Below, one piece after another: positions 7,447 through 64,000 of a stretch of DNA of 64,000 nucleotides. The DNA lies in NCBI GenBank assembly GCA_902798595.1, contig CADBXE010000006.1, positions 1-64,000 on the forward strand. The letters run 5' to 3'. Both the position numbers and the translations under genes were made by a program. The DNA comes from an uncultured Erysipelotrichaceae bacterium (GTDB lineage: Bacteria > Bacillota_I > Bacilli_A > RFN20 > CAG-826). The stretch's first letter is position 1; each line of letters begins with the position of its first letter. The notes beneath the pieces are model-generated. The model ran no database searches and was not told where the DNA came from. It worked only from the letters and a program-made list of their open reading frames with translations.

Positions 7447-7456
7447 AATCGCACAT

Positions 7457-11573: not shown

Positions 11574-11575
11574 TC

Positions 11576-12502
11576 ATGGATTTCGCAGAGCTAATACGTT
11601 TGACATTAAGCATGGGGTTACCATGCTGTCTATTGGCCCTCGGTGTATTCTTAACATTTAGAATACTCGATTTCGCTGATATGACCGCTGAAGGTAGTTT
11701 GTTAATTGGTGGTGCTGCATGCGCCCTCATGATTACACAAAACGTACCTCCAATTCTCGCCACATTTGTCGGCATGCTAGCCGGTGGCTTGTGCGGTTTT
11801 GTGACTGGCTTTTTGAATCGAGTATTAAAAATACCAAAGTTACTTAGTGGTATTATCACCATGACCGCATCTGGTTCTATTGCCTTATTATTATTTGGTT
11901 TAGCCAATGGCAGAATCTTTGCTTCTGAAATCAATGGCATCGATAACTCTAAAACAATCTTTGGCTTCTTAGATCCACGCATCTTCCATGGTTGGCAACA
12001 AATCATGGTCGTGGCAGTGATTGTCGCAATTGTCTTAGGCGTAGCGTATTTCTTCTTTGGCACAGAATACGGCATGGCTATCCGTGCCACTGGTATCAAT
12101 GAGAAAATGGCTAAATCACAAGGCATTAACACAACAGTAACCACAATTATCTGCGTTTCTATTAGTAACGCTCTTATCGGCTTAGCGGGTGCTCTTATCG
12201 CCCAAATCGATAGTGGCATGAATGCTCAAGGCGCGACTGGTTATCTTGTCGTTGGCTTAGCGAGTATCTTAATTGGTGAAACATTATTTGGTAAGAGATC
12301 GTTTAAAAACGCTCTTATCTCCATCAGTTTAGGTTCCATCCTTTACTTCGCTATCATCATGATTGCGACACAGGTATTCAAGATGCCAACAGACTTAACT
12401 AAATTACTATATGCCTTCTTAATCGCTTTAGCGCTTTGCTTACCAATGATTAAATCAGGCATACTAAAACTCTTCTCTAGAAAGAACAAGGAGGCTGAAT
12501 AG
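11576..12502 (+). CDS. ABC transporter permease (TrpY-like)
   Basis: A 308-residue polytopic membrane protein of the branched-chain-type permease family (BPD_transp_2), with about eight hydrophobic helices. E-Y-G-M-A-I-R-A-T-G-I-N-E-K-M-A resembles the cytoplasmic loop that docks on the ATPase. It begins 2 nt after the binding-protein stop codon and would form the translocation pore with the ATPase downstream. Confidence 0.88.
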   Translation: MDFAELIRLTLSMGLPCCLLALGVFLTFRILDFADMTAEGSLLIGGAACALMITQNVPPILATFVGMLAGGLCGFVTGFLNRVLKIPKLLSGIITMTASGSIALLLFGLANGRIFASEINGIDNSKTIFGFLDPRIFHGWQQIMVVAVIVAIVLGVAYFFFGTEYGMAIRATGINEKMAKSQGINTTVTTIICVSISNALIGLAGALIAQIDSGMNAQGATGYLVVGLASILIGETLFGKRSFKNALISISLGSILYFAIIMIATQVFKMPTDLTKLLYAFLIALALCLPMIKSGILKLFSRKNKEAE

Positions 12503-12504
12503 TT

Positions 12505-13518: not shown

Positions 13519-13569
13519 CATATCCCCCATGTTACACTGTACCAATTTCAGCAGATATGCGTGCTAGTG

Positions 13570-13597
13570 TGGACATGAAAAAATAATCGGCTATAAT
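13570..13597 (+). promoter_or_regulatory. Promoter of degV, leaderless arrangement
   Basis: TGGACA (13570-13575), 16 bp, TATAAT (13592-13597). ATG 13607 is only 9 nt past the -10 and no ribosome binding site exists, so the mRNA should begin at or within about 3 nt of the start codon. Confidence 0.7.
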
Positions 13598-13606
13598 AAT
13601 CGTGTT

Positions 13607-14461
13607 ATGAAAATTGCTATATCTGTCGAATCTACTGTCGACCTTTCAAAAGAACTAATTAAACAATATAACTTAGAGATGATTCCATTCACTGTCTTAT
13701 TAGGTGAAACCGCCTATTTAGATGGAGAAATCACCTCACAAGACATCTTTGACTTCGTTGCCAAGGAAAAGGTCTTACCACGCACAAGCGCGATTAACGA
13801 TTTCCAATATCGTGAATACTTTGATGGCTTAATTGCTAAAGGATATGACGCTATTATTCATATCTCATTAAGCTCTGAAATCTCTTCATCTTTCAGCCAT
13901 GCTGAATTAGCGTCCACTAAATACGATAACGTTTATATTATCGATTCAAGAAGCTTATCTACCGGTATTGCTTTACAAGCTATCTATGCTGCTAAGTTAA
14001 GAGACAAAGGCCTTGAGCCAGAAGAAATCGTCAAGAAAGTTAAGGCACGTATCCCTTATGTTCAAGCAAGCTTTGTTATCCAAACTCTTGAATACTTACA
14101 TAAAGGTGGTAGATGCTCTGGCTTATTAAGATTTGGTGCTACCATTCTTAGAATCAAACCACAAATCATCGTGAGTGACGGTAAAATGGCTCCTGCTAAA
14201 AAGTATATTGGTCGTAAGACACAAGTTATCGCAGGATATTGTAAAGACACATTAGAACAATTTGCAAATCCAGATCTCTCCGTCGCCTTCGTGACACATA
14301 CACAAGCAACACCAGAAATGGTCGCCGTTGCTATCGAAGCGTTAAAGAATCGTGGGTTTAAAACAATCTATGAAACCAATGCTGGTGCCACAATCACCAG
14401 CCACTGTGGTCCACAAACTCTTGGTATTCTGTTTATCAATGACGGAATGGATGAGGAATAA
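13607..14461 (+). CDS. DegV family fatty-acid-binding protein
   Basis: A 284-residue DegV protein. The family binds fatty acids, and FakB members present them to the kinase FakA for phosphorylation and entry into phospholipid synthesis. Typical motifs are S-V-E-S-T-V-D-L near the start, P-R-T-S-A-I-N near residue 60, I-H-I-S-L-S-S-E-I-S-S-S, I-D-S-R-S-L-S-T-G and a C-terminal H-C-G-P-Q-T-L-G. No FakA gene is nearby. Translation appears leaderless. Confidence 0.9.
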   Translation: MKIAISVESTVDLSKELIKQYNLEMIPFTVLLGETAYLDGEITSQDIFDFVAKEKVLPRTSAINDFQYREYFDGLIAKGYDAIIHISLSSEISSSFSHAELASTKYDNVYIIDSRSLSTGIALQAIYAAKLRDKGLEPEEIVKKVKARIPYVQASFVIQTLEYLHKGGRCSGLLRFGATILRIKPQIIVSDGKMAPAKKYIGRKTQVIAGYCKDTLEQFANPDLSVAFVTHTQATPEMVAVAIEALKNRGFKTIYETNAGATITSHCGPQTLGILFINDGMDEE

Positions 14462-47740: not shown

Positions 47741-47759
47741 CATGAACATTCAGGATTTC

Positions 47760-47923
47760 ATCAATAGCTCCTCTACAATAGTCTATTGTAGGAGTGCATA
47801 AGATGTTCTCTTATACCCCAACTCACTTAAGTGTCCCTAAGTGGTTTCGGCGGTATTTCCTTTCGTAAGCTTCATCGACTACCGTCTCAACTTACTACTG
47901 ATAAAGACCGCGCCTCTATCAAT
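47760..47923 (-). promoter_or_regulatory. Lysine riboswitch (L box)
   Basis: Minus-strand core words appear in the L-box order: GATAGAGGCGCGG (47920-47908), AGTAGTAAG, GATGAAGCTTACGAAAGG, CCGCCGAAAC and a closing GAGCTATTGATG. P1 forms between ATTGATAG (47923-47916) and CTATTGAT (47767-47760). It should switch off the transporter when lysine is plentiful. Confidence 0.92.
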
Positions 47924-47933
47924 CTATGCGAAT

Positions 47934-49813: not shown

Positions 49814-50806
49814 TTAGGCGATTGTGCTAATTGCTTGAACACCAGCATAACCAGCATCAGAAGGATTACCAAGCTTGAATTCTAAGTCTAATTTCCAATC
49901 GCGTGTTAATTCAGCGAAAGTAGATGTTGTACAAGTTGTGTCTTCACCTTCAAGCCATAAACGAACGATTACTTTGTAACGTTGTGTTGTGTTCACTGTT
50001 GGGGAAGCATCAACGATGGCAGCTGCGTTTGCGTTAGTGACATCATCTAAGGCACCATCATCAGCGCCTTTGACTGCCTTACCAGCAGTTTGGTTTGCAG
50101 AGGAAGAGAATTTGAGAATGGTCTTAACACCTGCTGCAACAGCGGTAGCATCTGTGACTGTGTTGTTGTTGTCATTCGCATTGCAAGGTTGAGCAAACAT
50201 GCCAACTCTCCATGCAAAGGCTGTTGTAACAGCACCATAGACAGATTCGCCTTTATATTGCATTTCGCATTTTGTCATAGCAATTCTGTGAGCAGCATTG
50301 GCATAGCCACCTTTTAAATAGAAGGAATAGTCAATATAACCGTAACAGACGTTGTCTGGATCAGACGCTTGTGTTCTAACTGATGGTGTGCCAAAGCCAT
50401 AAGCTGTATTGAAAGCAGCATCATATTTTGCTTTGCCGGCATATGAGTTAGCGAGAGCTGTGCCGTTAGCTTCGTCATACGCTGTGTATGTGGTTGCACC
50501 TTCTGTGCCTTGCGCTGTTGCAGCGCCGTTACCACTTGCTTTAACGGTATACCAGAAACTAGCAGCATTGATAGAAGAAGCTGGTTCAAGAATGCCTGAT
50601 CTTGCTTGTTGGAGAGAATCAGCGTAATTCTCTTCTAAGTTTGTTTCAGCAATTTGTAAGTTGCTAGAAACTTTTGTTGTAACTGTCATACCTGTGACAG
50701 AAACGATATTGTTCATAGAGAACCATGCAACGGTACCAGAAACGGAAGCCGCTGTGGATAAGAGTAACATTCCTAATGCAGGAATTATAATTTTTGTCTT
50801 TTTCAT
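49814..50806 (-). CDS. SipW-class signal peptide surface protein (divergent copy)
   Basis: 330 residues from ATG 50806. The signal region has a Lys-rich start, a hydrophobic stretch and S-V-S-G-T-V-A-W-F, as in TasA/camelysin-type proteins processed by SipW. The mature part is rich in Ala, Asn, Thr and Tyr and ends with V-R-L-W-L-E-G-E-D...L-D-L-E-F-K-L, matching the C-terminal motif of the proteins in the operon to the right. It probably forms or caps an extracellular fibre (inference). It has its own promoter and structured leader. AAGGAG lies 12 nt before ATG. Confidence 0.8.
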   Translation of the reverse strand: MKKTKIIIPALGMLLLSTAASVSGTVAWFSMNNIVSVTGMTVTTKVSSNLQIAETNLEENYADSLQQARSGILEPASSINAASFWYTVKASGNGAATAQGTEGATTYTAYDEANGTALANSYAGKAKYDAAFNTAYGFGTPSVRTQASDPDNVCYGYIDYSFYLKGGYANAAHRIAMTKCEMQYKGESVYGAVTTAFAWRVGMFAQPCNANDNNNTVTDATAVAAGVKTILKFSSSANQTAGKAVKGADDGALDDVTNANAAAIVDASPTVNTTQRYKVIVRLWLEGEDTTCTTSTFAELTRDWKLDLEFKLGNPSDAGYAGVQAISTIA

Positions 50807-50937
50807 ATAATTTATTAAACTCCTTATAAACGACAAAATCACTCAACTTATTTCCTAAACTGAGTGGATGATAGATTTTGCATCACATGTCGCCAATAAG
50901 AAATGGGACGTTCTTATCGCTTTCGCTTTGCACAATT
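50807..50937 (-). promoter_or_regulatory. Structured 5' leader of the divergent surface gene, class not identified
   Basis: Reading leftward from about 50931: a GCGAAAGC tetraloop hairpin, ATAAGAA...TTCTTAT, then CACTCA...TGAGTG followed by ATTTTG, which looks like a weak terminator. The leader is about 125 nt. I could not fit it to c-di-GMP-I/II, TPP, lysine, SAM, purine or preQ1 riboswitches. The rest of the gap (50968-51254) is AT-rich; I see only a possible promoter for the next gene (TTGGTA 51192-51197, 16 bp, TATAAA 51214-51219). Confidence 0.5.
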
Positions 50938-50967: not shown

Positions 50968-51254
50968 ACATTATTTTTGTATACAGAGTATAAAAGTAGC
51001 GAAAAATATGATAAAAAACGATAAAAACAATAAGAAGCGGTGGATCTTCATTGCTAAACTTAACATAATATTCAACCGAAACCAGACAGCGATTAACAAG
51101 TGAATATTTTGTTATAAAAGGTTAGAAACGTGACAACAAATTATTAACCTTCATAAAATAACTTTTTACGTGTAACGTATATAAAAAACGCTTGGTATTT
51201 ATTAAGGAAATATTATAAAATAACCTCGCATATACCTATTCGGTGTTAGTTAAT

Positions 51255-51623
51255 ATGGAAAAATTTAAGAAACCTTTAATCATTGCTGCTCTTGTGTTGG
51301 ATGTTGGTGTTACCATCTTCCTTTTTGTTATTAGTATTTTAATACTAGCGAAGGTTATTCCTGCTGCAACATTGAACGAAGCAATTAATAATTCTCAAAA
51401 TATGCCATTGATTCATTATTTGTTAAAGAATCCAACGGTTTATCTAGTAGCGTTCGTTATCCCATTATTTGTTCTTTTAGCGGGCAATGTTATTGGCTTA
51501 ATCTTCTATGTCAGAAAGACAAGCGGTAAGCAACCTGCTCAGTTAGAAGATCTTACCGAAGAGCAAAAAGAAGCTCTTAGACAAGAACTCTTAAAGGATT
51601 TAGGAAATAAAGATAACAACTAA
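51255..51623 (+). CDS. Small two-helix membrane protein with a signal-peptidase-like tail
   Basis: 122 residues from ATG 51255. Two long hydrophobic helices (about 9-33 and 57-84) and a cytoplasmic tail L-T-E-E-Q-K-E-A-L-R-Q-E-L-L-K-D-L. A closely similar tail, L-S-D-A-D-K-K-R-L-K-E-Q-L-L-E-E-M, ends the SipW-type signal peptidase at 61263. No ribosome binding site; an in-frame GTG at 51243 lies 6 nt after TATACC and may be the true leaderless start. It sits between the divergent surface gene and the c-di-GMP-controlled operon, so it may be an accessory factor. Confidence 0.65.
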   Translation: MEKFKKPLIIAALVLDVGVTIFLFVISILILAKVIPAATLNEAINNSQNMPLIHYLLKNPTVYLVAFVIPLFVLLAGNVIGLIFYVRKTSGKQPAQLEDLTEEQKEALRQELLKDLGNKDNN

Positions 51624-51687: not shown

Positions 51688-51715
51688 TGCACTTAGAATT
51701 TTTTGTGATAAATTA
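51688..51715 (+). promoter_or_regulatory. Promoter of the c-di-GMP-controlled operon
   Basis: TTGCAC (51688-51693), 16 bp, TAAATT (51710-51715); the predicted start is right at the aptamer. Confidence 0.75.
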
Positions 51716-51721
51716 ATCTCG

Positions 51722-51795
51722 AGTTAAAGGCAAAACCGGAGCAATCCGGCGACGCAAAACTATAGGGTCTTTATAAGATAGCCAGCAACCTCAAT
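51722..51795 (+). promoter_or_regulatory. Cyclic di-GMP-I (GEMM-I) riboswitch
   Basis: AAAGGCAAA, then CCGGA-gcaa-TCCGG (a stem with a GNRA tetraloop), GACGCAAAAC, TATAGGGTC and GATAGCCAG followed by AACC, all in the order and spacing of the GEMM-I aptamer. The 3' end runs into a terminator 5' arm (AACCTCAA 51787-51794), so ligand binding should change termination; whether it turns the operon on or off cannot be decided by eye. Confidence 0.93.
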
Positions 51796-51823
51796 TGTTT
51801 GAAGCAGTTGAGGTTTTATATTT
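51787..51823 (+). terminator. First terminator of the c-di-GMP riboswitch
   Basis: AACCTCAA (51787-51794) pairs with TTGAGGTT (51808-51815), followed by TTATATTTC. Confidence 0.8.
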
Positions 51824-51835
51824 CTTACAGAAGAT

Positions 51836-51899
51836 AGCCAGTTGCCTTAAGGGAGTTGGAATCCCGCCATTGTAATGGATGATAGGCAACTGGCTTTTA
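51836..51899 (+). promoter_or_regulatory. Second, multibranched terminator-like element
   Basis: AGCCAGTTGCC (51836-51846) pairs with GGCAACTGGCT (51885-51895) over 11 bp, with inner hairpins GGG...CCC (51851-51865) and CCATT-gt-AATGG (51867-51878), then TTTTAATTT. The 11-nt word AAGATAGCCAG at its left edge (51831-51841) repeats the 3' strand of the aptamer (51775-51785). Confidence 0.65.
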
Positions 51900-51962
51900 A
51901 TTTCAACCCCATTGGGACAATTAGAAAACACAAAACTACTGACAGAGTAAGAAAGAAGGACT

Positions 51963-52847
51963 ATGTACGATCTAATTTTGGTAAGAAGACGTAGAAGAAG
52001 AAAGATTGCGGCAATCGTCAGTTTTGTCTGTTCAATCGGCATTACTGCATTGATTATCATTTCTTTCCTCGGACAATACACTGGTACATTTACTATTTCT
52101 TTAGTTAGCTCTTCTGTGAAGTTATCTCTTTCCGACGAAGAAAGTTTTGCTAATCCAACATCTTACTTACGTATCGATAAGTTGAACCTGTTTGAGGAAT
52201 ATACTTACGATTACATCAAGGAAATTGATTTGGATAAAGAAAACAAAGAAGTTCCTTTTGATACAGGTGAACACGAAGTCGTAATTAGAGATAAGGATGG
52301 TAACAAAAAATCTTCTAGGAAGTATCTATCTTACTTTAAGTACACATTCTATCTGGGGAATTTAGGGAGTAAAGTGGCATCTTATGACATGAAGATTAAT
52401 CTTGTCGAATGCACACAATCCACAGATGGTACTGGAAGAACATTAGATGATACTCTCCGTGTGATGGTATACGAAAACGACGTTAATGACGCTGATAATT
52501 TAGGGGAGCATAACGTCGCAGTCTACGCCAAAGAAGTGGGCAATTCCGATGGTACAAATATTGACCTCGAAAATCACCCAACAAAACGCGAATTCATTTC
52601 TGCTAAGCCTTACAGGACAGATGAAGGCTATGTTGAAGATGAAGCCCATCCTTTAGCAATTTCATTTGAAGATGAAAAAACTATCAAGACATATAATCGT
52701 ACTGATTTCTACGCAGGCCAAATTCGTAGATATACAATAGTCAGCTGGTTAGAGGGACAAGATCGTGACTCAACCGGCAAAAAAGGTGCTCCTGTCAATG
52801 CTACTTTAAAATTAGGAGTTGAAATAACTGCTTATGAAAATGAATAA
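51963..52847 (+). CDS. Membrane-anchored surface protein, first gene of the c-di-GMP-controlled operon
   Basis: 294 residues. An Arg-rich start (R-R-R-R-R-R-K) and one helix (about 16-36) act as an uncleaved anchor; the rest should be outside and beta-rich. F-K-Y-T-F-Y-L-G-N-L-G-S-K-V-A-S-Y-D-M-K resembles the start of TasA/camelysin-like sandwiches, and the C-terminus has I-V-S-W-L-E-G-Q-D...L-K-L-G-V-E-I, like the secreted proteins that follow. It lacks the A-W-Y cleavage motif, so it could be the membrane base for a fibre (inference). AAGGA lies before ATG; the stop overlaps the next gene by 14 nt. Confidence 0.75.
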   Translation: MYDLILVRRRRRRKIAAIVSFVCSIGITALIIISFLGQYTGTFTISLVSSSVKLSLSDEESFANPTSYLRIDKLNLFEEYTYDYIKEIDLDKENKEVPFDTGEHEVVIRDKDGNKKSSRKYLSYFKYTFYLGNLGSKVASYDMKINLVECTQSTDGTGRTLDDTLRVMVYENDVNDADNLGEHNVAVYAKEVGNSDGTNIDLENHPTKREFISAKPYRTDEGYVEDEAHPLAISFEDEKTIKTYNRTDFYAGQIRRYTIVSWLEGQDRDSTGKKGAPVNATLKLGVEITAYENE

Positions 52848-53805
52848 AATTATAATTCCTGCCGCCGCATTGGCGATGGGTATCGCGTTAGTGGGCTCCG
52901 TTTCAAGCACATTAGCGTGGTATCAATACTCAACAAAAGCACAAGCAGCATTCATCGGTACAAGTGTTGGCCAATCTGAGAACTTAGAGATCCAAAAAAC
53001 ACCTGAAAAATGGACATCTAATCTAACAAATGCAGAGGTTAACGCCTTAGCCGGCATTAACGAAAGTTATCCAAACCTCCTTCCTGTCACTCCAGGTGTA
53101 TCCGTTGCTAAAGACGGTGCAATTCCTGCTAAGAGTGCGTTCAAAGAAGGAATTGAAACTGGCGTTTCTGAATACCGCAAAAATGCTGACCCAACAAACA
53201 TTATTCAATTTGATTTAAAGATTCGTTACAAGAAGACAACTGCTGATTCAGAATATCTTGCCAAAGATTTAATGCTTTCTGATTTAACAATCAAGAACGA
53301 TGCTGCAAATACAAAAGGCGCTGATTTGTACAAAGCAATCAGAGTTCATTTGGCTGTTGGCAATACGTCATATTTCTTGTTTGCTAACGATAATGATTCC
53401 AGCGAAGCTGAGTTAACCACTCAAACTTATGGTCCGTTAGACACTAATAACGATGGTTTTTATGATAAGACTATTGGTTATCAATGGGATAATACAACCG
53501 AAGTCCTCTACGGTGTCAACAATTCAACCGAAGTTGCCAATAATGCCCATCAATTGGATTTAAACAACCATCCAATTAAACTTGGTACATTACCTGCCGG
53601 CGACAAAGACAGTGCTGCTAAAGATGGCTTGAATGTTAAGGTAACCATTTGGATTGAAGGCTGGCATAAGTTTAATGGAGTCCCAGATGGAAATAAAGAT
53701 AAAGTCTCTGGCGAAGGTTCGCCTTCTTCTATGTGGGATCCACAACAATATGTTAATCAAAAATTCAACGTTGGTTTAAGATTCCAAGGCGTTGATGCTG
53801 AATAA
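52834..53805 (+). CDS. SipW-class signal peptide surface protein 1
   Basis: 323 residues. The signal ends with G-S-V-S-S-T-L-A-W-Y-Q-Y-S-T-K; SipW-type cleavage is expected near A-W. The mature part contains D-T-N-N-D-G-F-Y-D (a possible Ca-binding loop) and ends with V-T-I-W-I-E-G-W-H...F-N-V-G-L-R-F. Paralogous in both ends to the neighbouring genes. ATG 52840 is an alternative start two codons in. Predicted secreted fibre or matrix subunit. Confidence 0.8.
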   Translation: MKMNKIIIPAAALAMGIALVGSVSSTLAWYQYSTKAQAAFIGTSVGQSENLEIQKTPEKWTSNLTNAEVNALAGINESYPNLLPVTPGVSVAKDGAIPAKSAFKEGIETGVSEYRKNADPTNIIQFDLKIRYKKTTADSEYLAKDLMLSDLTIKNDAANTKGADLYKAIRVHLAVGNTSYFLFANDNDSSEAELTTQTYGPLDTNNDGFYDKTIGYQWDNTTEVLYGVNNSTEVANNAHQLDLNNHPIKLGTLPAGDKDSAAKDGLNVKVTIWIEGWHKFNGVPDGNKDKVSGEGSPSSMWDPQQYVNQKFNVGLRFQGVDAE

Positions 53806-53839
53806 TTAAAATCTTTATTGTTGCAATTGGAGAAAAGCA

Positions 53840-55030
53840 ATGAGAATCAACAAAACGAAATTTGTTGTTACTGCTTTGATTACGTGCTCTACAGCTGCAT
53901 TAGTGGGTTCTATTTCGAGTACAATCGCGTGGTACCAATACTCTACAAGAGTAAGCGCGGTTTACTTAGGAGCTTCTGCTGGTGCTAGAGGCAATTTGAG
54001 ATTAAGAATCAAAGGTACAAATAATTGGATTAATGATTTGACTTATCTTGATGTCGCAGATTATTTACGCGAACAAAATAAAGGGCAATTGATTACCCCA
54101 ATTACATCTGGCCCAATGAATGCCGACGATGCTATTAAAACTGACAATAATGGCGGAATGGTATTCTATCAGAATCCAGATGGTGGTGTACCTGCTGAAC
54201 GTGTTGACTACAACAATCTTTCTTGGAAGCCTGCCGATGATTCAATGTATGTATCAATTCCTCTGGAATTACGCTTTGAACACGAAAGTACAAATGGTTT
54301 AACGTTTTTAGAAAAAGATGTCTATATTTCTGACCTTCTTATACAAGGTGATTGGAAAAACAGCCAAGATTCTGAAAATAAGAAAGAAGATTTGTCAGAA
54401 TCCATACGTGTTCATATCAGCTCATACCAAAGTAATGATCAAAGCCAAGGTCATGCGGACACCGCTATTAATAGATTAATATCTAAAAACGGTGGCACGA
54501 TTTTAACCGAAGGCTATTTGGATCTCAACGGAGATGGTGATTTAGACGAATATGCCAATAATCAAGGCAACCATAGTGGTGCTAACTACCATTTTGGTGG
54601 CGAAGATGATGGAAATCATTATTACACTGCCTATGGTGAAGGCACACAAACCTCTTATTGCAATAAATCAATTATTCAAAACGGTTCATATAAAACTTTG
54701 CAGGATGAAACTGTTAACGAAAAAATTTACCCAATGACGGTAGAAACCATCGAAAACACTAACATCTTGGAAGAAGAAAGCTTTGAATACACTAAAGAAG
54801 GCGAAACGAATCCAACATCAAAATGTATTGGAAAAACAATCGCCTTTGATGATATGGCTAACGAAGCCTATCTTAATGTCGTTATGACAATTTGGGTAGA
54901 AGGATGGGAACCGCTTCCTTCACCAACAACTAGTGATCCGAATGCTAAATCTCCGATTTGGAACCCTTCGGATTACATCGGCTCTATGTTTGATGTCGGT
55001 ATTACATTTGCCGTTCAAACAGAGCAATAA
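53840..55030 (+). CDS. SipW-class signal peptide surface protein 2
   Basis: 396 residues. Signal motif G-S-I-S-S-T-I-A-W-Y-Q-Y-S-T-R; mature part with an Asp-rich D-L-N-G-D-G-D-L-D-E loop that resembles a calcium-binding (dockerin/EF-type) loop, and the C-terminal M-T-I-W-V-E-G-W-E...F-D-V-G-I-T-F motif. TTGGAGAA precedes ATG. Same length class and operon as the others. Confidence 0.8.
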   Translation: MRINKTKFVVTALITCSTAALVGSISSTIAWYQYSTRVSAVYLGASAGARGNLRLRIKGTNNWINDLTYLDVADYLREQNKGQLITPITSGPMNADDAIKTDNNGGMVFYQNPDGGVPAERVDYNNLSWKPADDSMYVSIPLELRFEHESTNGLTFLEKDVYISDLLIQGDWKNSQDSENKKEDLSESIRVHISSYQSNDQSQGHADTAINRLISKNGGTILTEGYLDLNGDGDLDEYANNQGNHSGANYHFGGEDDGNHYYTAYGEGTQTSYCNKSIIQNGSYKTLQDETVNEKIYPMTVETIENTNILEEESFEYTKEGETNPTSKCIGKTIAFDDMANEAYLNVVMTIWVEGWEPLPSPTTSDPNAKSPIWNPSDYIGSMFDVGITFAVQTEQ

Positions 55031-55077
55031 AACTCCGAAATCATCAAATTTATTAAACTTTAAAAATAGAAATATCT

Positions 55078-55115
55078 GCGAAGTCCTATATGTGTATATA
55101 CACACGGGACTTCGC
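55078..55115 (+). repeat. Intercistronic hairpin between surface genes 2 and 3
   Basis: GCGAAGTCC (55078-55086) pairs perfectly with GGACTTCGC (55107-55115); inside is the 14-bp palindrome TGTGTATATACACA (55091-55104). No T-run follows, so it is more likely an mRNA stability, processing or protein-binding site than a terminator. Confidence 0.75.
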
Positions 55116-55140
55116 GGGTGTACAATGGAAGAAAGGGTAT

Positions 55141-56376
55141 ATGAAAAAGATTAATCCGTTAAAACTTGCAATCGCTGTTCTTGGTTTTGCCACAACCGCA
55201 TCTTTAGTCGGTTCAATAAGCGGTACTATTGCTTGGTACGCATACTCTACGCGTGCTCTTGTTTCATATACGGGAACATCTGTTCAAAGTACAACACAGT
55301 TACAGATTGGTATTAAGAGTGATATCGTGGTTGATTTCACCACAAATAATGAATTGCTTGAACATGTAACGTTCGATAGTGATTTGTATTACGATGAGGT
55401 GAATGATCCTGGTCACGAACACAAACTATATCATTACCATTACTACTTTATGAAAGTAGGATCTGGTGGCTTACCTGCTGCTGTTATCAATGACTATTTG
55501 AGTGCAAAAGGTTATGCTACAAATATTTTGGAACCGCTTTCTTCCTATGGTTATAACACAGGCGAAAACATTAATTTAAGAAATAGACCAGCCACTAATA
55601 ATCCAGACATTGTTCCTGGCCCAGCTGAAATTACTAAATACGTTGAAATTCCGTTTGTTTTCCGTGTATTAGCATCTAACACATCTACTCTTTCCTATGT
55701 TGAAGGCCACGATATTTTCTTGGGTTCTGCTCAAGCTATTGCCGCACCAAACTTAGAAAATAGCACTGCTGGTAATGTGATTCACAACTCCATTCGTTTA
55801 TATATTGATCGCAGCAATGGCAGTAACTTCATTTTAAATCCGACATCTAAATATGATGGAAGAGATAAAGTTGCGGGTGTTTTAAACCTTACGGGTGGTG
55901 GCGCTGGTAATCAGTTCTATGATTATGATAATGATCCATCATCTCCTACATATATGTGCGAGTATTTGTATGGGGATTACGATTGGAACGAAGGCAAAAC
56001 CTGGGCGAATTCTTTGTCTGAACCTCTTGCTGCTTCATCTGGCTTAATAGATGTTAACGGCACTGGTAATAGTGAAGTTGAGACAACTTTCACTTCTAGA
56101 CATTACAGAGGTGTCAAATATTTCAGTGACTTGAGTTGCATTACTCCTCATTATGCCAATTACCTCGGATATAGCACAGTATATCCACAAAAGAACGATC
56201 AAGGAGATTTTGTTGGCAATTATGCCGTTTGCAGAACTGGTGACGAAACCGCCAATTACCTCGGTACGTTTAATATGAAAATATATCTCGAAGGTTGGGA
56301 CCATTCAGTTATTGATTCTCAACTTCAAAATAAATTCTATTTAGGTCTAACATTTGAAATCAATATCGTGAGATAG
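55141..56376 (+). CDS. SipW-class signal peptide surface protein 3
   Basis: 411 residues from ATG 55141 (GAAAGGG just upstream); the frame runs 17 codons further upstream but through the hairpin without support. Signal motif G-S-I-S-G-T-I-A-W-Y-A-Y-S-T-R, mature part rich in Asn, Ser and Tyr with D-Y-D-N-D-P-S-S, and C-terminal M-K-I-Y-L-E-G-W-D...F-Y-L-G-L-T-F. Predicted extracellular fibre or matrix subunit. Confidence 0.8.
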   Translation: MKKINPLKLAIAVLGFATTASLVGSISGTIAWYAYSTRALVSYTGTSVQSTTQLQIGIKSDIVVDFTTNNELLEHVTFDSDLYYDEVNDPGHEHKLYHYHYYFMKVGSGGLPAAVINDYLSAKGYATNILEPLSSYGYNTGENINLRNRPATNNPDIVPGPAEITKYVEIPFVFRVLASNTSTLSYVEGHDIFLGSAQAIAAPNLENSTAGNVIHNSIRLYIDRSNGSNFILNPTSKYDGRDKVAGVLNLTGGGAGNQFYDYDNDPSSPTYMCEYLYGDYDWNEGKTWANSLSEPLAASSGLIDVNGTGNSEVETTFTSRHYRGVKYFSDLSCITPHYANYLGYSTVYPQKNDQGDFVGNYAVCRTGDETANYLGTFNMKIYLEGWDHSVIDSQLQNKFYLGLTFEINIVR

Positions 56377-56383
56377 GAGGCAT

Positions 56384-57475
56384 ATGAATAAGAGAAGACT
56401 TGTCATATCACTAATACTCGGAACCGTTGCGTTATCTGTGATATCGCTTTCCGCTTCTTTAGCGTGGTATGCAAGTAGTGACCTTCTCCAAGTCAACATG
56501 ATTGATTTAGATGTCAGAACAGATGAATCTGTTGGTTTATTTATTTCCACTGAAAAAGATGAGAATTCATTTAAACCTAAGCTTGAAAATAAAGACTTAA
56601 ATAAAGTTAAAGAATTTGAACCTGCTTCCAGCATGTTCCAAGATAACTGGATGAACACTAAGAGTGATATTCCTTATTTCTATAACTTTAAAGAACGTTC
56701 GTTCATGGGTTTACCTGATTTTAATAAGCCAAGCACAGAAGGTTTCTTCCAACAAAAACTCTATCTTTTAAACAATATTGATTATTATGTCACACTTGAT
56801 GCTGAACAAACCTTTATCATTGCTGATAAAGAATCTAATCATTTACGCGCGCAGGCTCTTGTGGGCAAAATCGATTCATTAACTGCTGATGAAATCGAGG
56901 AAAAGTTAAACAAATTAGAGAATTGCATGAGATTCTCCATCCTTGTTAATAATCCAAATTACTACCGTTACTACATCATCGACCCAAATAAAGATGAAAA
57001 CAAAGTGACATACTTCGCTGGTAGATTGGATAACGATGGTGACGAATTTTATGACACATATCAAGTCGATATTAATGACACACCAAAAGAGATTGTCTAT
57101 GGCGAAATTGAAAATCGTGATGCAATTAAATATGACAATCCAAAAAGCACAACATCATCTCCTCGTAGCATTGATCCAGATAAACAAGAATTCTTCGGTA
57201 ATGCGTTCACAGGTAAAAGTGATGCAGGTGCATATACATATAATGAACAACAATCGCTTGACGCAGGCGTTAAATATAAACAAGAACCTTCTATCTCTTT
57301 AGAAGAAATCGCGTCAGACGATAACCCAGTCTTAATCCCATGTTATAACGGTGTTGCTACCGAAATAGTATTATCCATCTATTTGGAAGGTTGGGATTTA
57401 GATTGCTATAACTCCACGATGGGAGCGAGCTTCAATGCACAATTAAGTTTTAAGTTATTAAGGGGGATTATCTAA
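56384..57475 (+). CDS. SipW-class signal peptide surface protein 4
   Basis: 363 residues, AGGAGG before ATG. The signal is more diverged: S-L-S-A-S-L-A-W-Y-A-S-S. D-N-D-G-D-E-F-Y-D is a putative Ca loop, and the end is L-S-I-Y-L-E-G-W-D...F-N-A-Q-L-S-F. One base separates it from the AAA+ gene, showing that the surface subunits and the ATPase share a transcript. Confidence 0.8.
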   Translation: MNKRRLVISLILGTVALSVISLSASLAWYASSDLLQVNMIDLDVRTDESVGLFISTEKDENSFKPKLENKDLNKVKEFEPASSMFQDNWMNTKSDIPYFYNFKERSFMGLPDFNKPSTEGFFQQKLYLLNNIDYYVTLDAEQTFIIADKESNHLRAQALVGKIDSLTADEIEEKLNKLENCMRFSILVNNPNYYRYYIIDPNKDENKVTYFAGRLDNDGDEFYDTYQVDINDTPKEIVYGEIENRDAIKYDNPKSTTSSPRSIDPDKQEFFGNAFTGKSDAGAYTYNEQQSLDAGVKYKQEPSISLEEIASDDNPVLIPCYNGVATEIVLSIYLEGWDLDCYNSTMGASFNAQLSFKLLRGII

Positions 57476-57476
57476 T

Positions 57477-59003
57477 ATGGCATCTTATTTTGAGTACTTA
57501 AGGTACATGTTCCTAAGAGTCCTAGAGCATATTGGCACATTCTTTTACAAAGCCATTGTCTCACCATGGACTGACTTACCAAAAAACTTCGGCGTCTATA
57601 ATGATTTAATGGGCAGCCACTACGCGAGTTTTGGTCCAGTTGGTTGGATCTTCTGGGTCATCTTCTTGCTCTTATTCATCGGTTTAATCGCTGGTCTTCT
57701 TTTCTTGATTGTTATTTTCTTTAGAAAGTACGTCAGATTCGTGAAGAAGGAATTAGATAAAGAAGAATTACGTAGACAAGTTGAAAGACTTAACTATGAA
57801 CTCTATCAAGCCGTACAAGAAAAAGATAAAATCCTCAATCTTAAAATTGGTTACATGGGCTTACGTAGTCCTGATCAAGTTGATCTTGACCAAGAAAGTA
57901 AAGAAGTCGTGGAAGAAGTTTCCTCCAGATTCCCAAAACTTATCCATGTTGATAACAAATATAGAGGCACTAATAACGATATTCCATTTAGACCAAACCT
58001 CACCCTTGAAGAATTATGTAATGCCTTCCGTAACTTCGCTGCTTCTCAATTGAAGTTATATTATAGGGAAGATGTTATTAAACAATTATTTGCCGGTATG
58101 GCGGCCTCTAAGTTAATCATCTTAGAAGGTATCTCTGGTACAGGTAAAACATCCTTAGCGTTCGCGCTTGGTAAATTCTTCAAATTTGACTCTGCAATTA
58201 TTCCAGTTCAACCATCATGGAAAGATAGAAGTGAACTCTTAGGTTACTATAACGAATTCACTAAGAAATTCAATGAAACTGAATTCTTAAGAGCGTTATA
58301 CACCACAACCTATAGACAAGATATGGACATCATCGTTCTCGATGAAATGAACTTAGCCCGTATTGAATACTACTTCGCTGAATTCTTATCTATTATGGAA
58401 ATGAGAGATCCTAATGACTGGGTAGTGGACCTTATCCCTGCCACTATGAGCAATGACCCAGTTAATTTAAAAGAAGGTAAACTCTTAATTCCACAAAACG
58501 TCATGTTCTTCGGTACCGCCAATAACGATGATAGTACATTCACTATCTCCGATAAGGTCTATGACCGTGCGGTCTCCATCTTCTTTGACGATAAAGGCCG
58601 TCCATTTGATGCGCCACAACAAGAAGCAATGTCTATCCCATATAGCCAAATCAGAAAGTTATATGATGAAGCCATTGCCCAATATCCAATTAGTAAAGAT
58701 ATGTCCGCGAAGTTTGAACAATTAGATAACTTCGTCATTAAGAAATTCAAACTCGCCTTTGGTAACCGTATTCTTAAACAATTAGATACATTCATTCCTG
58801 TTTATGTCGGCTGTGGTGGTAAAGAAGTCGATGGTTATGACTTCATCTTCACCAACAAAGTCTTAAAGAAATTTGAATCCTTGAATATCGCCTTCTTAAA
58901 AGACGAATTAAAAGAACTCGATGCTCAATTAGACAAGATGTATGGCAAAGGTAACTTCAAGATGGCCCATGCCTATATTGAAAGCTTAATTAAAAACAAC
59001 TAA
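57477..59003 (+). CDS. Membrane-anchored McrB-like AAA+ ATPase
   Basis: 508 residues: N-terminal helical part, one membrane helix (about 57-82), a coiled-coil (about 85-120), then a MoxR/McrB-clade AAA+ domain with Walker A G-I-S-G-T-G-K-T (Lys224), Walker B V-L-D-E-M-N-L-A-R (Asp289, Glu290), sensor G-T-A-N-N-D (near Asn349) and D-R-A. McrB proteins use GTP and drive a nuclease; this one has a membrane tether and no DNA-binding domain that I can see. With the DUF2357-like gene next to it, it forms the typical McrB/DUF2357 pair, here inside an envelope operon. Confidence 0.85.
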   Translation: MASYFEYLRYMFLRVLEHIGTFFYKAIVSPWTDLPKNFGVYNDLMGSHYASFGPVGWIFWVIFLLLFIGLIAGLLFLIVIFFRKYVRFVKKELDKEELRRQVERLNYELYQAVQEKDKILNLKIGYMGLRSPDQVDLDQESKEVVEEVSSRFPKLIHVDNKYRGTNNDIPFRPNLTLEELCNAFRNFAASQLKLYYREDVIKQLFAGMAASKLIILEGISGTGKTSLAFALGKFFKFDSAIIPVQPSWKDRSELLGYYNEFTKKFNETEFLRALYTTTYRQDMDIIVLDEMNLARIEYYFAEFLSIMEMRDPNDWVVDLIPATMSNDPVNLKEGKLLIPQNVMFFGTANNDDSTFTISDKVYDRAVSIFFDDKGRPFDAPQQEAMSIPYSQIRKLYDEAIAQYPISKDMSAKFEQLDNFVIKKFKLAFGNRILKQLDTFIPVYVGCGGKEVDGYDFIFTNKVLKKFESLNIAFLKDELKELDAQLDKMYGKGNFKMAHAYIESLIKNN

Positions 59004-59022
59004 TCACAATTAACACTCATTT

Positions 59023-61257
59023 ATGAAAAAACAAAACTCAACTAGACAAATCAATCGTTCCTATCAAAGCCGTATGAAAGCTTTGATTAAAGGCAAACAT
59101 GAACAAGAAATCTTTGATTCTTTAAAAGATGGCAAGAATTCTTATTTAAGATTGGATCGTTTAGCGAGTTCTTCTTTCGATAAAAGCTGGATTGAAACCA
59201 TTGAAAATGTCATCTTTGATTTAGGTGCAATCATCGCTAATCCAAGAAGTAACACAAAAGTGGAAGGCACTTTAACACCAGTTGAATTAGCAAGAAAAAC
59301 CAACAGTGAATCCGTCCAACATTTAGCGAGTCACACCCAATACATCAAAGAAGTTGATGAATATGGAAACGTTATTCCAAGTAAGCTTTTAAGCATGTAC
59401 GCGGATGACGATATCCATACATACGAGAATAGATTCATCGCCACTTTCGTGAGAAGATTAATGCTTTTTATCTCTAAGCGTTATGAATACATTACCAAGT
59501 ATGCGGAATTACGTAATGAAGAAATCCTCTTCTTTAAAAACTATTCTGTTGTCGATGGAGCGGATGTTGAAATCGAAACTAAAGTTAAAGTTTCTTACAA
59601 GAATGAAGATGAAGAAGCGGTCAGAAACTCTAAGTACGTTGACCGTATTATGCAAACAAGACAATACATCCTCTATTTCTATAACTCTCCATTTATGAAG
59701 GCTTTAAAGAATGAAAAGGATGTTCGTAATCCAATCATTCAAACCAATATCATTAGAAAAAATCCTAAGTATAGACACTGCTACGAAGTGTATAGATTCA
59801 TCGAATCATACGATAGACTTGGTGTTAACTACAAGATTGATGAAAACTATTCCTTATTTAACGATGAAGAGATTAACGAATTAAATAGAACATTATTCGC
59901 TAATTACATCACTCTTAAAGGCAATTCTGAATCTAAGTCTTCCAAGAAGAACACTAAAGTTTATAAGCCAAAGATTCTCACATCCATGGATGATGAATCA
60001 TTTATCTATGGCAAGTTATTTGAAGGACCAATTGAATTTGTCCGTATTGACCAAGGCTATCAAGACTATTTAGATAGCAAGATTAAAAAAGACTTACCAT
60101 TACACCCAACCAAGAAAGAAAAGGAATACTATTCTCTAGAATATGAAAAGAAGTCTGAGAACAAACAAGACTTAAAGCAAAAGAACGATTTAATTAAGCG
60201 TACTGAAAAGCAAGTCAATCAATTCGAAAAGAGTGTTAGGAACATTCTCGCTAAACGTGAAGAAGCAAGACTCAAACTCCTCGAACTTGAAAAACAAACT
60301 ATCAGACAAGAAGAAATTGATCTCCTTGAAGCCGCGAGACGTGAAATCATTGAAGCTTCCAAACAAGAAATGGCCAGAGCCAATCCTAAAAAGCAACCAA
60401 AAGAAGAAGCGCCTATCGTTGAAACACCTAAGGAAGAGGAACCAATTAAAGAAAAAATTGTTTACGTTCCTACCGTTAGTTTTGATGATGCCTCTAAGGA
60501 GATTTGGCCGCAATTAACTAAACCTCTTAAAAAGGCTAAAAAAGCCCCTAAAGAGGTAAAGGCAGTGGAACCACAACCTGTGGTTAATGAAAAACAACTA
60601 GCAGTGGAAGAAGTCCCAGTTGCTATCACTCAACCAGAAGAAGCTAAACCAGCTCCAGTTGTGTATGTTCCAACAGTGAGCTTCGCGGAAGCTGCTGATG
60701 AGATTTGGCCACAACTTAATAATCCTCAACCATTAAAAGAGGAACAAAAACCACAAGAACAACCAAAGGTTGTCGTTAAACAAGTTAATAAGCCAGTTAA
60801 AAAGGCTCCAATAGTAAAACAAGAAGAAGTTAAATCTGAACCAAAGGTTTATATTCCAACTGTTTCATTTAATGAAGTTGCTGGTGAGATTTGGCCACAA
60901 CTTAATAATCCAAAGCCTCTTCCAAAAGAAGAAAAGAAACCAGCCCCTGCTCCTACACCTATTAAAAAGCCAGTGGCTAAGAAACAACCAGTCGTAGAAG
61001 AAGCTAAACCAGATTCAAGAAAAGTCAGAGCGAGATTTAAAATCTACGATGGTTCTGAAGTAGTTATTTTCGCTAAAAAGGAAAAACCAGCAGAAAAGGT
61101 TGAACCTAAAAAGGAAGAAGTTAAACCTGCTCCTAAAAAAGAGCAAACTAAACCAGCACCGGTTAAGAAACCTGAACCAAAAGTTGAGGAAAAGAAACCT
61201 GTGCCACCACAAAACAAACTTAAATTCAAACACAGCAGAAAGGGATTTAGGAAATAA
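59023..61257 (+). CDS. DUF2357-like coiled-coil protein with three EIWPQL docking-type repeats
   Basis: 744 residues, cytoplasmic. Residues ~1-330 resemble the DUF2357 domain that pairs with McrB-like ATPases (D-D-I-H-T-Y-E-N-R-F-I-A-T-F-V-R-R-L). Residues ~380-460 are a long coiled-coil. The rest is Lys/Pro/Glu-rich linker with three copies of Y-[VI]-P-T-V-S-F...E-I-W-P-Q-L beginning near residues 481, 548 and 610, and a basic tail. The restriction-endonuclease core found in McrC-type proteins is not evident. I read it as a scaffold or adaptor for the ATPase (inference). 19 nt after the ATPase gene. Confidence 0.75.
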   Translation: MKKQNSTRQINRSYQSRMKALIKGKHEQEIFDSLKDGKNSYLRLDRLASSSFDKSWIETIENVIFDLGAIIANPRSNTKVEGTLTPVELARKTNSESVQHLASHTQYIKEVDEYGNVIPSKLLSMYADDDIHTYENRFIATFVRRLMLFISKRYEYITKYAELRNEEILFFKNYSVVDGADVEIETKVKVSYKNEDEEAVRNSKYVDRIMQTRQYILYFYNSPFMKALKNEKDVRNPIIQTNIIRKNPKYRHCYEVYRFIESYDRLGVNYKIDENYSLFNDEEINELNRTLFANYITLKGNSESKSSKKNTKVYKPKILTSMDDESFIYGKLFEGPIEFVRIDQGYQDYLDSKIKKDLPLHPTKKEKEYYSLEYEKKSENKQDLKQKNDLIKRTEKQVNQFEKSVRNILAKREEARLKLLELEKQTIRQEEIDLLEAARREIIEASKQEMARANPKKQPKEEAPIVETPKEEEPIKEKIVYVPTVSFDDASKEIWPQLTKPLKKAKKAPKEVKAVEPQPVVNEKQLAVEEVPVAITQPEEAKPAPVVYVPTVSFAEAADEIWPQLNNPQPLKEEQKPQEQPKVVVKQVNKPVKKAPIVKQEEVKSEPKVYIPTVSFNEVAGEIWPQLNNPKPLPKEEKKPAPAPTPIKKPVAKKQPVVEEAKPDSRKVRARFKIYDGSEVVIFAKKEKPAEKVEPKKEEVKPAPKKEQTKPAPVKKPEPKVEEKKPVPPQNKLKFKHSRKGFRK

Positions 61258-61262
61258 TCATC

Positions 61263-62144
61263 ATGAGCGAACAAGTTAAGGAAAAACGCGTTAAAAAGCC
61301 AAAAAGTAAGGCCAGAAAAATCGTTGAATGGATTCTTACTGGCATTTTCCTTGCGCTCTTCGCTTTCGTTATGGCGGGTCAAATTGATGGCATGGTCCAT
61401 AAGAAAGATCACTATAATCAACAAATTAGATTTGGTTATGGTACTTTCATGGTTAAAACAGATTCCATGAAGCCTGTTTATGGCATTGATACCGCTTTAA
61501 TCACTTATAACGAGGATCCTGAAAAGATTTTACAACGCTTTGAAAAAGGTGAAACCGTGGATATCACCTTCGTCCATGTCCCAATCGCGAGCAATGATTA
61601 TACTCAACCAGAGAATAATCCAGAGCTCACTGTTCGCACTAACGCGAATAGAGATGAGAGAATAGATGGCATTCCTATGACCCACAGAGTCAGAGAAATC
61701 CACGTCAACAAACAAGTTGAAAAAGGTCAAGGCCGCTATACCTTCATCACCGCTGGTATCAATACTAAAAGTGAATGGATGGGTTGGAAAGAAGGCGACC
61801 CAGAAATGGTCATTAATCAATATCAAGCCATCACTGAAAAAGAATTATTAGGTAGAGTGGTGGTCAATTCACCGGTCTTAGGAGGAGTGTTCTCCTTTGT
61901 GAGTTCGGTATTCGGTTTATTAATTTTATTACTTATCCCAGCGTTCTATCTGGTCATTACTTCGGTAATCGACATCTTTAAGGCCTATAAAGATCCTGAG
62001 GAAGCAAAAGAAGGTGCCGCTAGCGGTAATAATAATGGTGGAGGTCCTGTCACTCTCTCAGACGCAGATAAAAAGAGACTTAAAGAACAACTCTTAGAAG
62101 AAATGATTAATAAGAAGAAGGAGGCCAACAATGAAAAAGAATAA
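61263..62144 (+). CDS. sipW: SipW/ER-type signal peptidase I
   Basis: 293 residues with helices at about 20-41 and 213-240. Catalytic Ser68 is in T-D-S-M-K-P, and the partner is His141 in M-T-H-R-V-R (ER/SipW-type Ser-His dyad instead of Ser-Lys). SipW processes TasA-type fibre subunits, so it is the natural processing enzyme for the four secreted proteins encoded just upstream. The tail L-S-D-A-D-K-K-R-L-K-E-Q-L-L matches that of the small membrane protein at 51255. The stop overlaps the next start by 14 nt. Confidence 0.88.
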   Translation: MSEQVKEKRVKKPKSKARKIVEWILTGIFLALFAFVMAGQIDGMVHKKDHYNQQIRFGYGTFMVKTDSMKPVYGIDTALITYNEDPEKILQRFEKGETVDITFVHVPIASNDYTQPENNPELTVRTNANRDERIDGIPMTHRVREIHVNKQVEKGQGRYTFITAGINTKSEWMGWKEGDPEMVINQYQAITEKELLGRVVVNSPVLGGVFSFVSSVFGLLILLLIPAFYLVITSVIDIFKAYKDPEEAKEGAASGNNNGGGPVTLSDADKKRLKEQLLEEMINKKKEANNEKE

Positions 62145-63678
62145 GGATCGATACTTAGTCGCGGTTGCCATCTTCGGTATCCTTTTAACTTTGATGTTTA
62201 TCTTCCTAGGCTTTGTTTTACTAGGGGAAATTTTTGGCGATAATAAAGTTTTACCAAATGTGATTAACGCTATGACATTTGGTTTGACCATTATTTACAT
62301 TTTGGTTTTATCTTTCTATATCAATAGTCGTTTCACTTTGGTCTCTATTCAAAATGATAACGAATATAACTTAGGAGAAAGAAGTACTTTCAATAACTTG
62401 TATGCTTTCCAAAGACAAGTTGAGTACCGTATCAAAATCAACAATAGATTCTTTAAGAAATCACAACATATTATTGCATTTACCTTCTCCTCTTTGGCGG
62501 TTGCGCAAAACGTCAATAGAAATAGAGAAATCTATGCTTTAAACAGTCATATTGCCTCTTTCTTAGACGAAATACCAGGCAAGATTAATTGTAAGAAGAA
62601 TGCAGTTGTCTCCGCCTTCTCTCGTGGTGCTTTCTTAATTTATCTACAAAAGCAAAGTGAACAAGTGATTCAAAACATTTGTGAAATCCTTACCAAGGAA
62701 ATCTATGATTTCGGTGAGGCTAACTGCCCACATACATGGGTACAACCATTCTTTGGTATTGCCGTTATTTCTGGTGAAGAAACATTAACTCACCAAATTG
62801 AAAACGCTTTACTCGCTAGAGACCACTCCGAAAAGAACTTCGAAACAATTACTTTCTATCAACCATCCTTCCGTAAGAGTGTTTCTTCTTCTGAAGTTGA
62901 TGAATTATATGAAGCTTTAGAAAAGAAAGAATTCGTTGTTTACTATCAACCTAAGTTTGATTTAAATAACAAACAATTCATTTCTTCTGAAGCTTTGATT
63001 AGATGGAACAGTAAAAAGTATGGCTTATTAGCGCCTACTAAGTTCCTCGCGAAAGCGGAATCCATCGGTCTTATCCACGATATTGATATCTATGTTTTAA
63101 GACAAGTTTGTGAAGACCTTAACGATTTGATTAGAAGAGGTAGAAGAACTCTTCCAGTCTCCGTTAACTTCTCGTTATTTGAATTCTATAGCACAAACTT
63201 CTTAGATAAGATTATGTCTATCTTAGACGAATTCAAAGTGCCACCTCATTTAATTGAAATTGAAATTACTGAAGCGACATCACAAGCTAACCAATTCCTT
63301 TCCATTTCCATTATTAAGAAACTTAAGGAACAAGGTATCCGAGTCTTAATGGATGACTTTGGTATTGGTTATTCTAACGTCGGTAACTTAAGAAAGATTC
63401 CATTTGACGTTGTTAAGATTGATAAATCCTTTATTGATGGTATTGTCACAGACACTAAAGCAAGAGAAATCGTTAAGTTCTTAATCGGTCTTTGTAAGAT
63501 TAACGGTATGGAAGTCGTTGCCGAAGGTGTTGATAACAAAGAACAAGTTGAAATCTTAAAGAAGGCTAAGTGCGACACTATTCAAGGCTTCTATTATTCC
63601 AAAGCTCTTGAAAAGAAGGCTTTTGAAGACTTCTTATTAAATAACCCATTCGAAAAGAAGGAGGCAGTTAAAAAATGA
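62131..63678 (+). CDS. Membrane GGDEF(degenerate)-EAL c-di-GMP phosphodiesterase
   Basis: 515 residues: two helices (about 9-33, 46-66), a degenerate GGDEF domain (about 85-250; the GGDEF site reads F-S-R-G-A-F, so no cyclase activity is expected), and an EAL domain (about 265-505). EAL residues look intact: S-E-A-L-I-R-W, V-N-F-S, E-I-T-E, M-D-D-F-G-I-G-Y, K-I-D-K-S-F and A-E-G-V. It should hydrolyse c-di-GMP, the ligand of the riboswitch at the head of the operon. AAGGAGG precedes ATG. Confidence 0.9.
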   Translation: MKKNKDRYLVAVAIFGILLTLMFIFLGFVLLGEIFGDNKVLPNVINAMTFGLTIIYILVLSFYINSRFTLVSIQNDNEYNLGERSTFNNLYAFQRQVEYRIKINNRFFKKSQHIIAFTFSSLAVAQNVNRNREIYALNSHIASFLDEIPGKINCKKNAVVSAFSRGAFLIYLQKQSEQVIQNICEILTKEIYDFGEANCPHTWVQPFFGIAVISGEETLTHQIENALLARDHSEKNFETITFYQPSFRKSVSSSEVDELYEALEKKEFVVYYQPKFDLNNKQFISSEALIRWNSKKYGLLAPTKFLAKAESIGLIHDIDIYVLRQVCEDLNDLIRRGRRTLPVSVNFSLFEFYSTNFLDKIMSILDEFKVPPHLIEIEITEATSQANQFLSISIIKKLKEQGIRVLMDDFGIGYSNVGNLRKIPFDVVKIDKSFIDGIVTDTKAREIVKFLIGLCKINGMEVVAEGVDNKEQVEILKKAKCDTIQGFYYSKALEKKAFEDFLLNNPFEKKEAVKK

Positions 63679-64000
63679 TTATGATCGTCGGTTCTCAACA
63701 TGATGATATCCTTTATTTCGAAAGTGTCATCACCAATAAGAGAGAAGAAACAGTCTTAGGTAAATTCAAAGTTACGATTGGTAAAATCTTTAACCAAGCC
63801 GTCCTTTTAGTGGACCAAATGAAAACCAACTACTTAAGTAGTGCTTTAACTTTATACTTAATCGAAAAATACTTTGTGATTCTTGTTATTAATGTCGGTC
63901 GTTGCATCGCTTATACACGCGATGTGAAGCCTACAAGTATCGCAATTAGTAAGCATGTTATTTTAGGGGATGTGGATCAAGTTAACGAAGATAATGTTAA
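63675..64000 (+). CDS. Nucleosidase/phosphorylase superfamily protein (partial)
   Basis: The first 108 codons only; the gene runs off the window. I-V-G-S-Q-H-D-D-I-L-Y-F-E-S, G-K-F-K-V-T-I-G-K-I and V-I-N-V-G-R-C-I-A resemble the N-terminal half of the MTA/SAH nucleosidase and purine phosphorylase family (compare M-E-E-E and N-T-G-S-A-G), with key positions changed, so it could be a non-catalytic relative. GAAGGAGGC precedes ATG and the start overlaps the EAL stop by 4 nt, so it belongs to the same operon. Confidence 0.6.
   Translation, partial: MIMIVGSQHDDILYFESVITNKREETVLGKFKVTIGKIFNQAVLLVDQMKTNYLSSALTLYLIEKYFVILVINVGRCIAYTRDVKPTSIAISKHVILGDVDQVNEDNV

Follow-up and report, generated by a model that had tools for sequence, protein, structure and literature searches.

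A c-di-GMP riboswitch-headed operon linking SipW-type surface proteins to an McrB-like membrane NTPase in uncultured Bacilli

Introduction

Why should an NTPase related to McrB, whose kin are restriction systems, be encoded among surface proteins behind a riboswitch for c-di-GMP? The locus that raises this question lies in a stretch of 64,000 nucleotides (here called the window), part of contig C6 in the 1.37-Mb, 77%-complete genome of an uncultured Erysipelotrichaceae bacterium. An earlier note on this DNA had proposed a single c-di-GMP-regulated unit combining SipW-processed surface proteins with a membrane McrB-like/DUF2357 pair. That proposal is borne out by the linkage of the components across 49 loci and by the presence of GEMM-I aptamers beside the AAA gene. 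What the NTPase pair does within the unit is the question taken up below.

Results

Organization of the locus

The features of the locus and its immediate surroundings are as follows.

49814..50842, - strand: further SipW-type-signal protein (GTVAWFSM), a neighbour whose orientation varies between relatives
51243..51623, + strand: U126, small protein with two transmembrane (TM) segments, a conserved upstream gene; its C-terminus resembles the C-terminal TM segment and tail of SipW
51719..51850, + strand: GEMM-I (c-di-GMP-I) riboswitch aptamer; RF01051 at 51719-51793, c-di-GMP-I-GGC at 51720-51850 with a hairpin insert
51836..51903, + strand: intrinsic terminator-like hairpin; its 5' arm, AGCCAGUUGCCUU, is the aptamer 3' strand, as expected of an ON switch
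51963..52847, + strand: membrane-anchored surface protein (anchor), N-terminal TM segment without a SipW motif; the conserved first gene after the riboswitch
52834..53805, + strand: sig1, SipW-type-signal surface protein 1 (SSTLAWYQYS)
53840..55030, + strand: sig2, SipW-type-signal surface protein 2 (SSTIAWYQYS)
55141..56376, + strand: sig3, SipW-type-signal surface protein 3 (SGTIAWYAYS); listed start 55090, with a better start at 55141 (ribosome-binding-like site)
56384..57475, + strand: sig4, SipW-type-signal surface protein 4 (SASLAWYASS), the best conserved of the surface proteins
57477..59003, + strand: membrane AAA+ NTPase, McrB-related; TM 62-80, likely coiled coil, P-loop GISGTGKT, Walker B VLDEMN, signature ANNDDST
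59023..61257, + strand: DUF2357 (McrC N-domain)-like protein; core 1-290, long helix, K/E/P-rich tail
61263..62144, + strand: SipW-type signal peptidase, Ser68/His141, SEC11-like
62131..63678, + strand: membrane EAL phosphodiesterase, 515 aa; catalytic motifs present, GGDEF degenerate
63675..64000, + strand: start of a PNP_UDP_1 nucleosidase-like protein of 246 aa; whole gene at L051:3675-4415 in the next stretch of the contig

The aptamer had been thought to head at least nine tightly packed genes; we count ten on the + strand between it and the window edge, separated by gaps of -14 to about 110 bp, with the NTPase gene starting 1 bp past the sig4 stop. Terminator-like matches on the + strand downstream of the leader are few, and none lies outside genes. 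The operon continues beyond the window, where the nucleosidase-like gene is completed and followed by one for a 1020-aa EAL-related protein, and it ends at L051:7480, about 3.5 kb beyond the window, facing a convergent gene.

The neighbouring gene at 49814-50842 runs opposite to the operon in the window and in three relatives (L037, L043, and L047), and in the same orientation in four others (L034, L035, L041, and L050). Inverted repeats able to flip it are only weak (75% over 28 nt). Further upstream, a lysine riboswitch (47757-47926, - strand, 100.2 bits) precedes an amino-acid ABC-transporter-like operon.

The riboswitch and c-di-GMP signalling

The Rfam c-di-GMP-I model RF01051 matches positions 51719-51793 of the + strand with 47.7 bits (gathering score 35), and an alignment to the c-di-GMP-I-GGC family extends to 51850 with 51.8 bits, below that family's cut-off of 59. 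The aptamer is kept at the same place in relatives. In the terminator of the window, AGCCAGUUGCCUU pairs with UAGGCAACUGGCU, which is followed by a U-rich tail. The 5' arm of the terminator lies inside the aptamer 3' strand in 23 of the 35 switches scanned, so that binding of c-di-GMP should stop termination. Judging from this conserved anatomy, the riboswitch should be an ON switch through which c-di-GMP turns the operon on. The aptamer family and the ON logic by terminator overlap are common to GEMM-I-controlled genes in general, whereas the target operon differs here, as does the duplication of the aptamer 3' half in this genus. The duplication occupies 51775-51850 of the window, comprising AAGATAGCCAGCAACCTCAA and AAGATAGCCAGTTGCCTTAA, which a terminator-like hairpin separates, the second half being the better pairing one; it recurs in L034, L035, L037, L041, and L050 and is absent from L043 and L047.

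We surveyed GEMM-I in 40 genomes, all of them selected for carrying the AAA gene. It is found in 30 of these, and in 26 of the 30 it lies no more than 12 kb from the AAA locus; in the remaining four, the contig is short or ends close to the AAA gene. In these AAA-carrying genomes, 45 of 85 GEMM-I sites fall within 12 kb of the AAA gene, every one of the 45 on the AAA strand, as against one or two of the 85 by a rough estimate of chance (about 24 kb of a 1.5-Mb genome). The other 10 of the 40 AAA-carrying genomes possess the locus without GEMM-I. No GEMM-II match was obtained in genomes without GEMM-I, a result that carries little weight because the controls of that search were also unmatched.

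Ten GGDEF matches above cut-off are present in the genome, seven of them strong, which makes it likely that c-di-GMP is produced and that its signalling is present in this organism. Within the operon, the supposed GGDEF-EAL protein proved to be half right: the EAL domain of the 515-aa protein is a strong match (4e-68) with intact catalytic motifs, but its GGDEF half is degenerate (RGAF). The EAL domain of the distal 1020-aa protein, as read from its sequence, has lost some catalytic residues. The two other GEMM-I riboswitches of the genome also head operons of SipW-type-signal proteins of up to 1347 aa (L172:9719-10675 and 5926-9762; L173:14444-15394, 11446-14442, and 7384-11427), without NTPase genes.

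The SipW-type peptidase and the surface proteins

The peptidase matches the NCBIfam SipW model (5.7e-6) and, in profile searches, SEC11A/C (SEC11A, 8e-14). Its Ser68 and His141 are invariant in 23 sequences, marking a catalytic Ser/His rather than Lys enzyme, and it is the only strong SipW match in the 77%-complete genome. The anchored protein and the four proteins with SipW-class signals are present as the earlier note had described them, the signals being a motif call (a hydrophobic stretch followed by [ST]xAW[YF]) that none of the NCBIfam models for SipW-type signals confirms. The surface proteins have no Pfam match. An AF2 model of sig4 (pLDDT 76) found no fold match in the PDB, none being better than E 0.67, and no match to the TasA fold.

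Across the genus, the surface proteins are mostly 23-47% identical and the NTPase 71-89%. A constant NTPase accompanied by variable surface proteins would fit a fixed machine handling variable cargo. The sig2-sig4 proteins of one relative, L037, are 73-82% identical to those of the window, as against 22-45% for other genus members at the same AAA identity (89%); this pattern would reflect either an exchange of cassettes or the existence of two divergent kinds of cargo.

The NTPase and its DUF2357 partner

The AAA protein scores above cut-off against AAA_5 of Pfam, and its relatives in the PDB are McrB only. A single TM helix spans residues 62-80, with a charged and probably helical stretch behind it. 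From genus to class, the protein keeps its P-loop, its Walker B motif, and the N349-x-D351 signature, N349 and D351 being invariant also in L061/L062 and the 900-aa relative. In eight genomes, a DivIC/FtsB model matched none of the fibre-type AAA genes, so that homology of the NTPase N-terminus to FtsB is undetected.

The DUF2357 match of the partner encoded in the window (20.5 bits) is below the cut-off of 23.3, but 43 matches in class relatives score above it, nearly all adjoining the AAA gene; together with the AAA_5/McrB match and the SipW score and Ser/His residues, these bear out the identities previously assigned to the three proteins. Across 41 orthologues, none of the acidic residues past position 136 is conserved; thus, the nuclease signature of McrC is missing. 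The protein has a predicted long helix at 371-449 and a low-complexity, K/E/P-rich tail with three copies of VPTVSFxxAxxEIWPQL. Its structure model is too poor in quality for fold judgement, and its likeness to McrC therefore rests on sequence.

One copy of the tail motif (WPQLDNPKPLPKEEK) occurs in a 468-aa membrane protein (L069:7709-9115) adjoining a very large surface protein (2951 aa, open-ended). This recurrence of the EIWPQL-type motif would fit a docking role. The genome that contains the window also encodes a stand-alone pair of a 903-aa AAA and a DUF2357 protein without surface genes (L052:8186-12389). Both this AAA and that of the window (1.4e-40) match the PADLOC defence candidate PDC-M26A.

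Conservation across Bacilli

Relatives were drawn from the genus, order, and class. Among them, we counted by hand 49 fibre-type AAA loci, spread over twelve or more families of Bacilli. A DUF2357 gene adjoins the AAA gene in 47 of the 49 and a SipW-type gene is nearby in 47, so that the proposed co-occurrence of the three was recovered by gene neighbourhood; SipW-type-signal proteins on the same strand accompany 45. The missing parts are in part explained by contig ends or by other spellings of the signal. The gene order is anchor-sig-AAA-DUF2357-SipW in the family to which the window belongs and anchor-sig-SipW-AAA-DUF2357-SipW-sig in several others. That the contents of the locus are kept while their order shifts points to function rather than operon inertia. 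The earlier note had staked its single-system reading partly on the two halves staying together in relatives. On the NTPase side they do, the AAA gene being nearly always found with DUF2357, SipW, and signal proteins; surface genes can occur alone, as the two GEMM-I operons lacking an NTPase in the genome of the window attest.

Stand-alone AAA relatives of 900 aa occur without SipW. An AAA tree, with SH-aLRT as the only support measure, resolves clean groups that follow architecture: the stand-alone type of 900 aa, the ABC-linked type of 600 aa, the paired type, and the fibre type, the last containing a small subclade of giant proteins. A strongly supported split separates the fibre-type AAA from the stand-alone 900-aa AAA. 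The 600-aa subtype (L066, L120, L127, and L130) is accompanied by SipW-like and exported proteins, and in three of these (L066, L120, and L130) also by probable ABC-transporter genes. In the paired type (L065, L122, L123, and L126), DUF2357 lies between two AAA genes that have 1.1 kb of DNA in common at 99-100% identity; the pair in L121 is 76% identical. The near-identical pairs look like ongoing gene conversion, the alternative being an assembly artefact in draft genomes.

Comparison with known systems

The view that no described system has this set of genes was too strong, for the core parts match CoCoPALM, a group named in a few sentences, with details deferred, by Bell et al. (2024, eLife, PMC11090510). 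They describe an McrB NTPase of the NxD kind that carries an FtsB-like TM/coiled coil, together with a McrC homologue that has a coiled coil and signal peptidases to which pilus assembly is ascribed. Three of the four features are found here: the NxD NTPase with its TM segment and probable coiled coil, the DUF2357 partner with a long helix, and the adjoining signal peptidase. For the fourth, the FtsB-like N-terminus, the DivIC/FtsB search detected no homology. The system fits this short description; it additionally has the c-di-GMP riboswitch, multiple SipW-type substrates, and the EAL and nucleosidase-like genes. The main text of PMC11090510 makes no mention of c-di-GMP, riboswitch, GGDEF, biofilm, or TasA. 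Our literature search found no later paper on CoCoPALM and none treating McrB and SipW as one system. New relative to the CoCoPALM description are control by c-di-GMP, the substrates of SipW, and a DUF2357 partner that lacks the nuclease.

With McrBC Type IV restriction, the locus shares neighbouring genes for an AAA+ domain and a DUF2357 partner; however, it has a membrane anchor, no modified-base reader was found, no PD-(D/E)xK residues are conserved, and surface genes replace the methylase and defence context. With the tapA-sipW-tasA operon of Bacillus subtilis and sipW-tasA/calY of B. cereus, it shares a SipW peptidase of the ER type (Ser/His), encoded in the same operon as secreted proteins bearing SipW-type signals. 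In published accounts, those operons lack the NTPase pair and are under SinR rather than riboswitch control, and the TasA fold was not matched by the sig4 model.

Discussion

We read the locus as a single functional system, namely a surface-protein apparatus that c-di-GMP turns on and in which the NTPase pair is most likely a motor or gate, and give this reading a rough probability of 0.55. At high c-di-GMP, the GEMM-I aptamer would hold the terminator-forming strand, and the whole operon would be transcribed, if the conserved anatomy is a guide. The four SipW-type proteins would then be exported and cut by the SipW of the operon; the anchored first protein would probably tether them at the membrane, and they would probably form a fibre or matrix coat. 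The McrB-like AAA+ protein probably assembles into an NTPase ring anchored in the membrane. Its McrC-like activator would be the DUF2357 protein, in which a long helix and repeated linear motifs stand in place of a nuclease. At the inner face of the membrane, this pair most likely serves as a motor or gate, coupling NTP hydrolysis to the processing, release, or assembly of SipW substrates. The EAL protein, with its intact catalytic motifs, would lower c-di-GMP and thereby provide a negative feedback loop. The more specific proposal, that this is a c-di-GMP-gated, NTP-powered builder of SipW-type fibres, widespread in uncultured Bacilli, in which a McrBC restriction motor has turned into a membrane assembly platform, and that it represents a class of surface-assembly systems in Gram-positive bacteria whose mechanism is undescribed, we advance tentatively, at somewhat less than even odds.

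Several observations weigh against this reading of the locus. The published account of TasA fibres in Bacillus is one of assembly by donor-strand exchange, involving SipW and TapA, and it includes no NTPase; hence, a motor is not obviously needed. To this are added the NTPase-less GEMM-I operons of SipW-type proteins in this very genome, the AAA-carrying genomes whose locus lacks GEMM-I, and the want of Pfam or PDB fold matches for the surface proteins and the sig4 model, respectively. That fibres of the TasA type can form without an NTPase sits comfortably with a different role for the AAA/DUF2357 pair, namely membrane quality control, in which it would extract or clear uncleaved or misassembled SipW precursors during bulk fibre production rather than build the fibre. 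The gene content is equally expected under both the motor and quality-control models, and an NTPase that is membrane-anchored and nearly always accompanied by the peptidase would suit the latter; yet apart from the signal peptidase, the locus conserves neither a protease domain nor a partner for proteolysis, and the NTPase domain is of the McrB type, outside the known extractase families. We consider quality control unlikely.

The same domain type raises the prospect of an anti-phage system resembling Type IV restriction that rides in, or guards, a surface operon. The PDC-M26A match, the restriction systems among McrB/McrC kin, and the stand-alone 903-aa AAA and DUF2357 pair of this genome all lend themselves to such a role. 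It is nevertheless quite improbable, given the 41 DUF2357 orthologues devoid of conserved nuclease residues, the class-wide preservation of the DUF2357, SipW, and riboswitch context, and the tree split separating the fibre type from the stand-alone 900-aa AAA; as the main reading, a defence island is rejected on account of the absent nuclease residues and the conserved surface context. Finally, two independent modules might share a transcript by operon inertia, as the NTPase-free surface operons of the same genome and of Bacillus would allow. Against this, the linkage has outlasted changes of gene order across many families, and AAA loci without SipW-type genes usually adjoin other very large or exported-looking proteins, which leaves inertia very improbable. 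A mere chance neighbourhood is ruled out by conservation across the 49 loci and by the GEMM-I linkage in AAA-carrying genomes.

Should the reading as a c-di-GMP-switched surface apparatus be right, an NTPase of the restriction type has been enlisted for construction of the cell surface, directly controlled by c-di-GMP, and the ON-switch prediction and the link to cargo are directly testable. CoCoPALM, at present a group in name only, would gain a concrete hypothesis in which regulator, cargo, protease, and motor are found within one operon. Defence databases may be counting such loci as anti-phage systems, as the PADLOC candidate illustrates. More generally, these findings suggest that, in many families of Bacilli from gut and rumen, a defence-type motor was recruited for building the cell surface.
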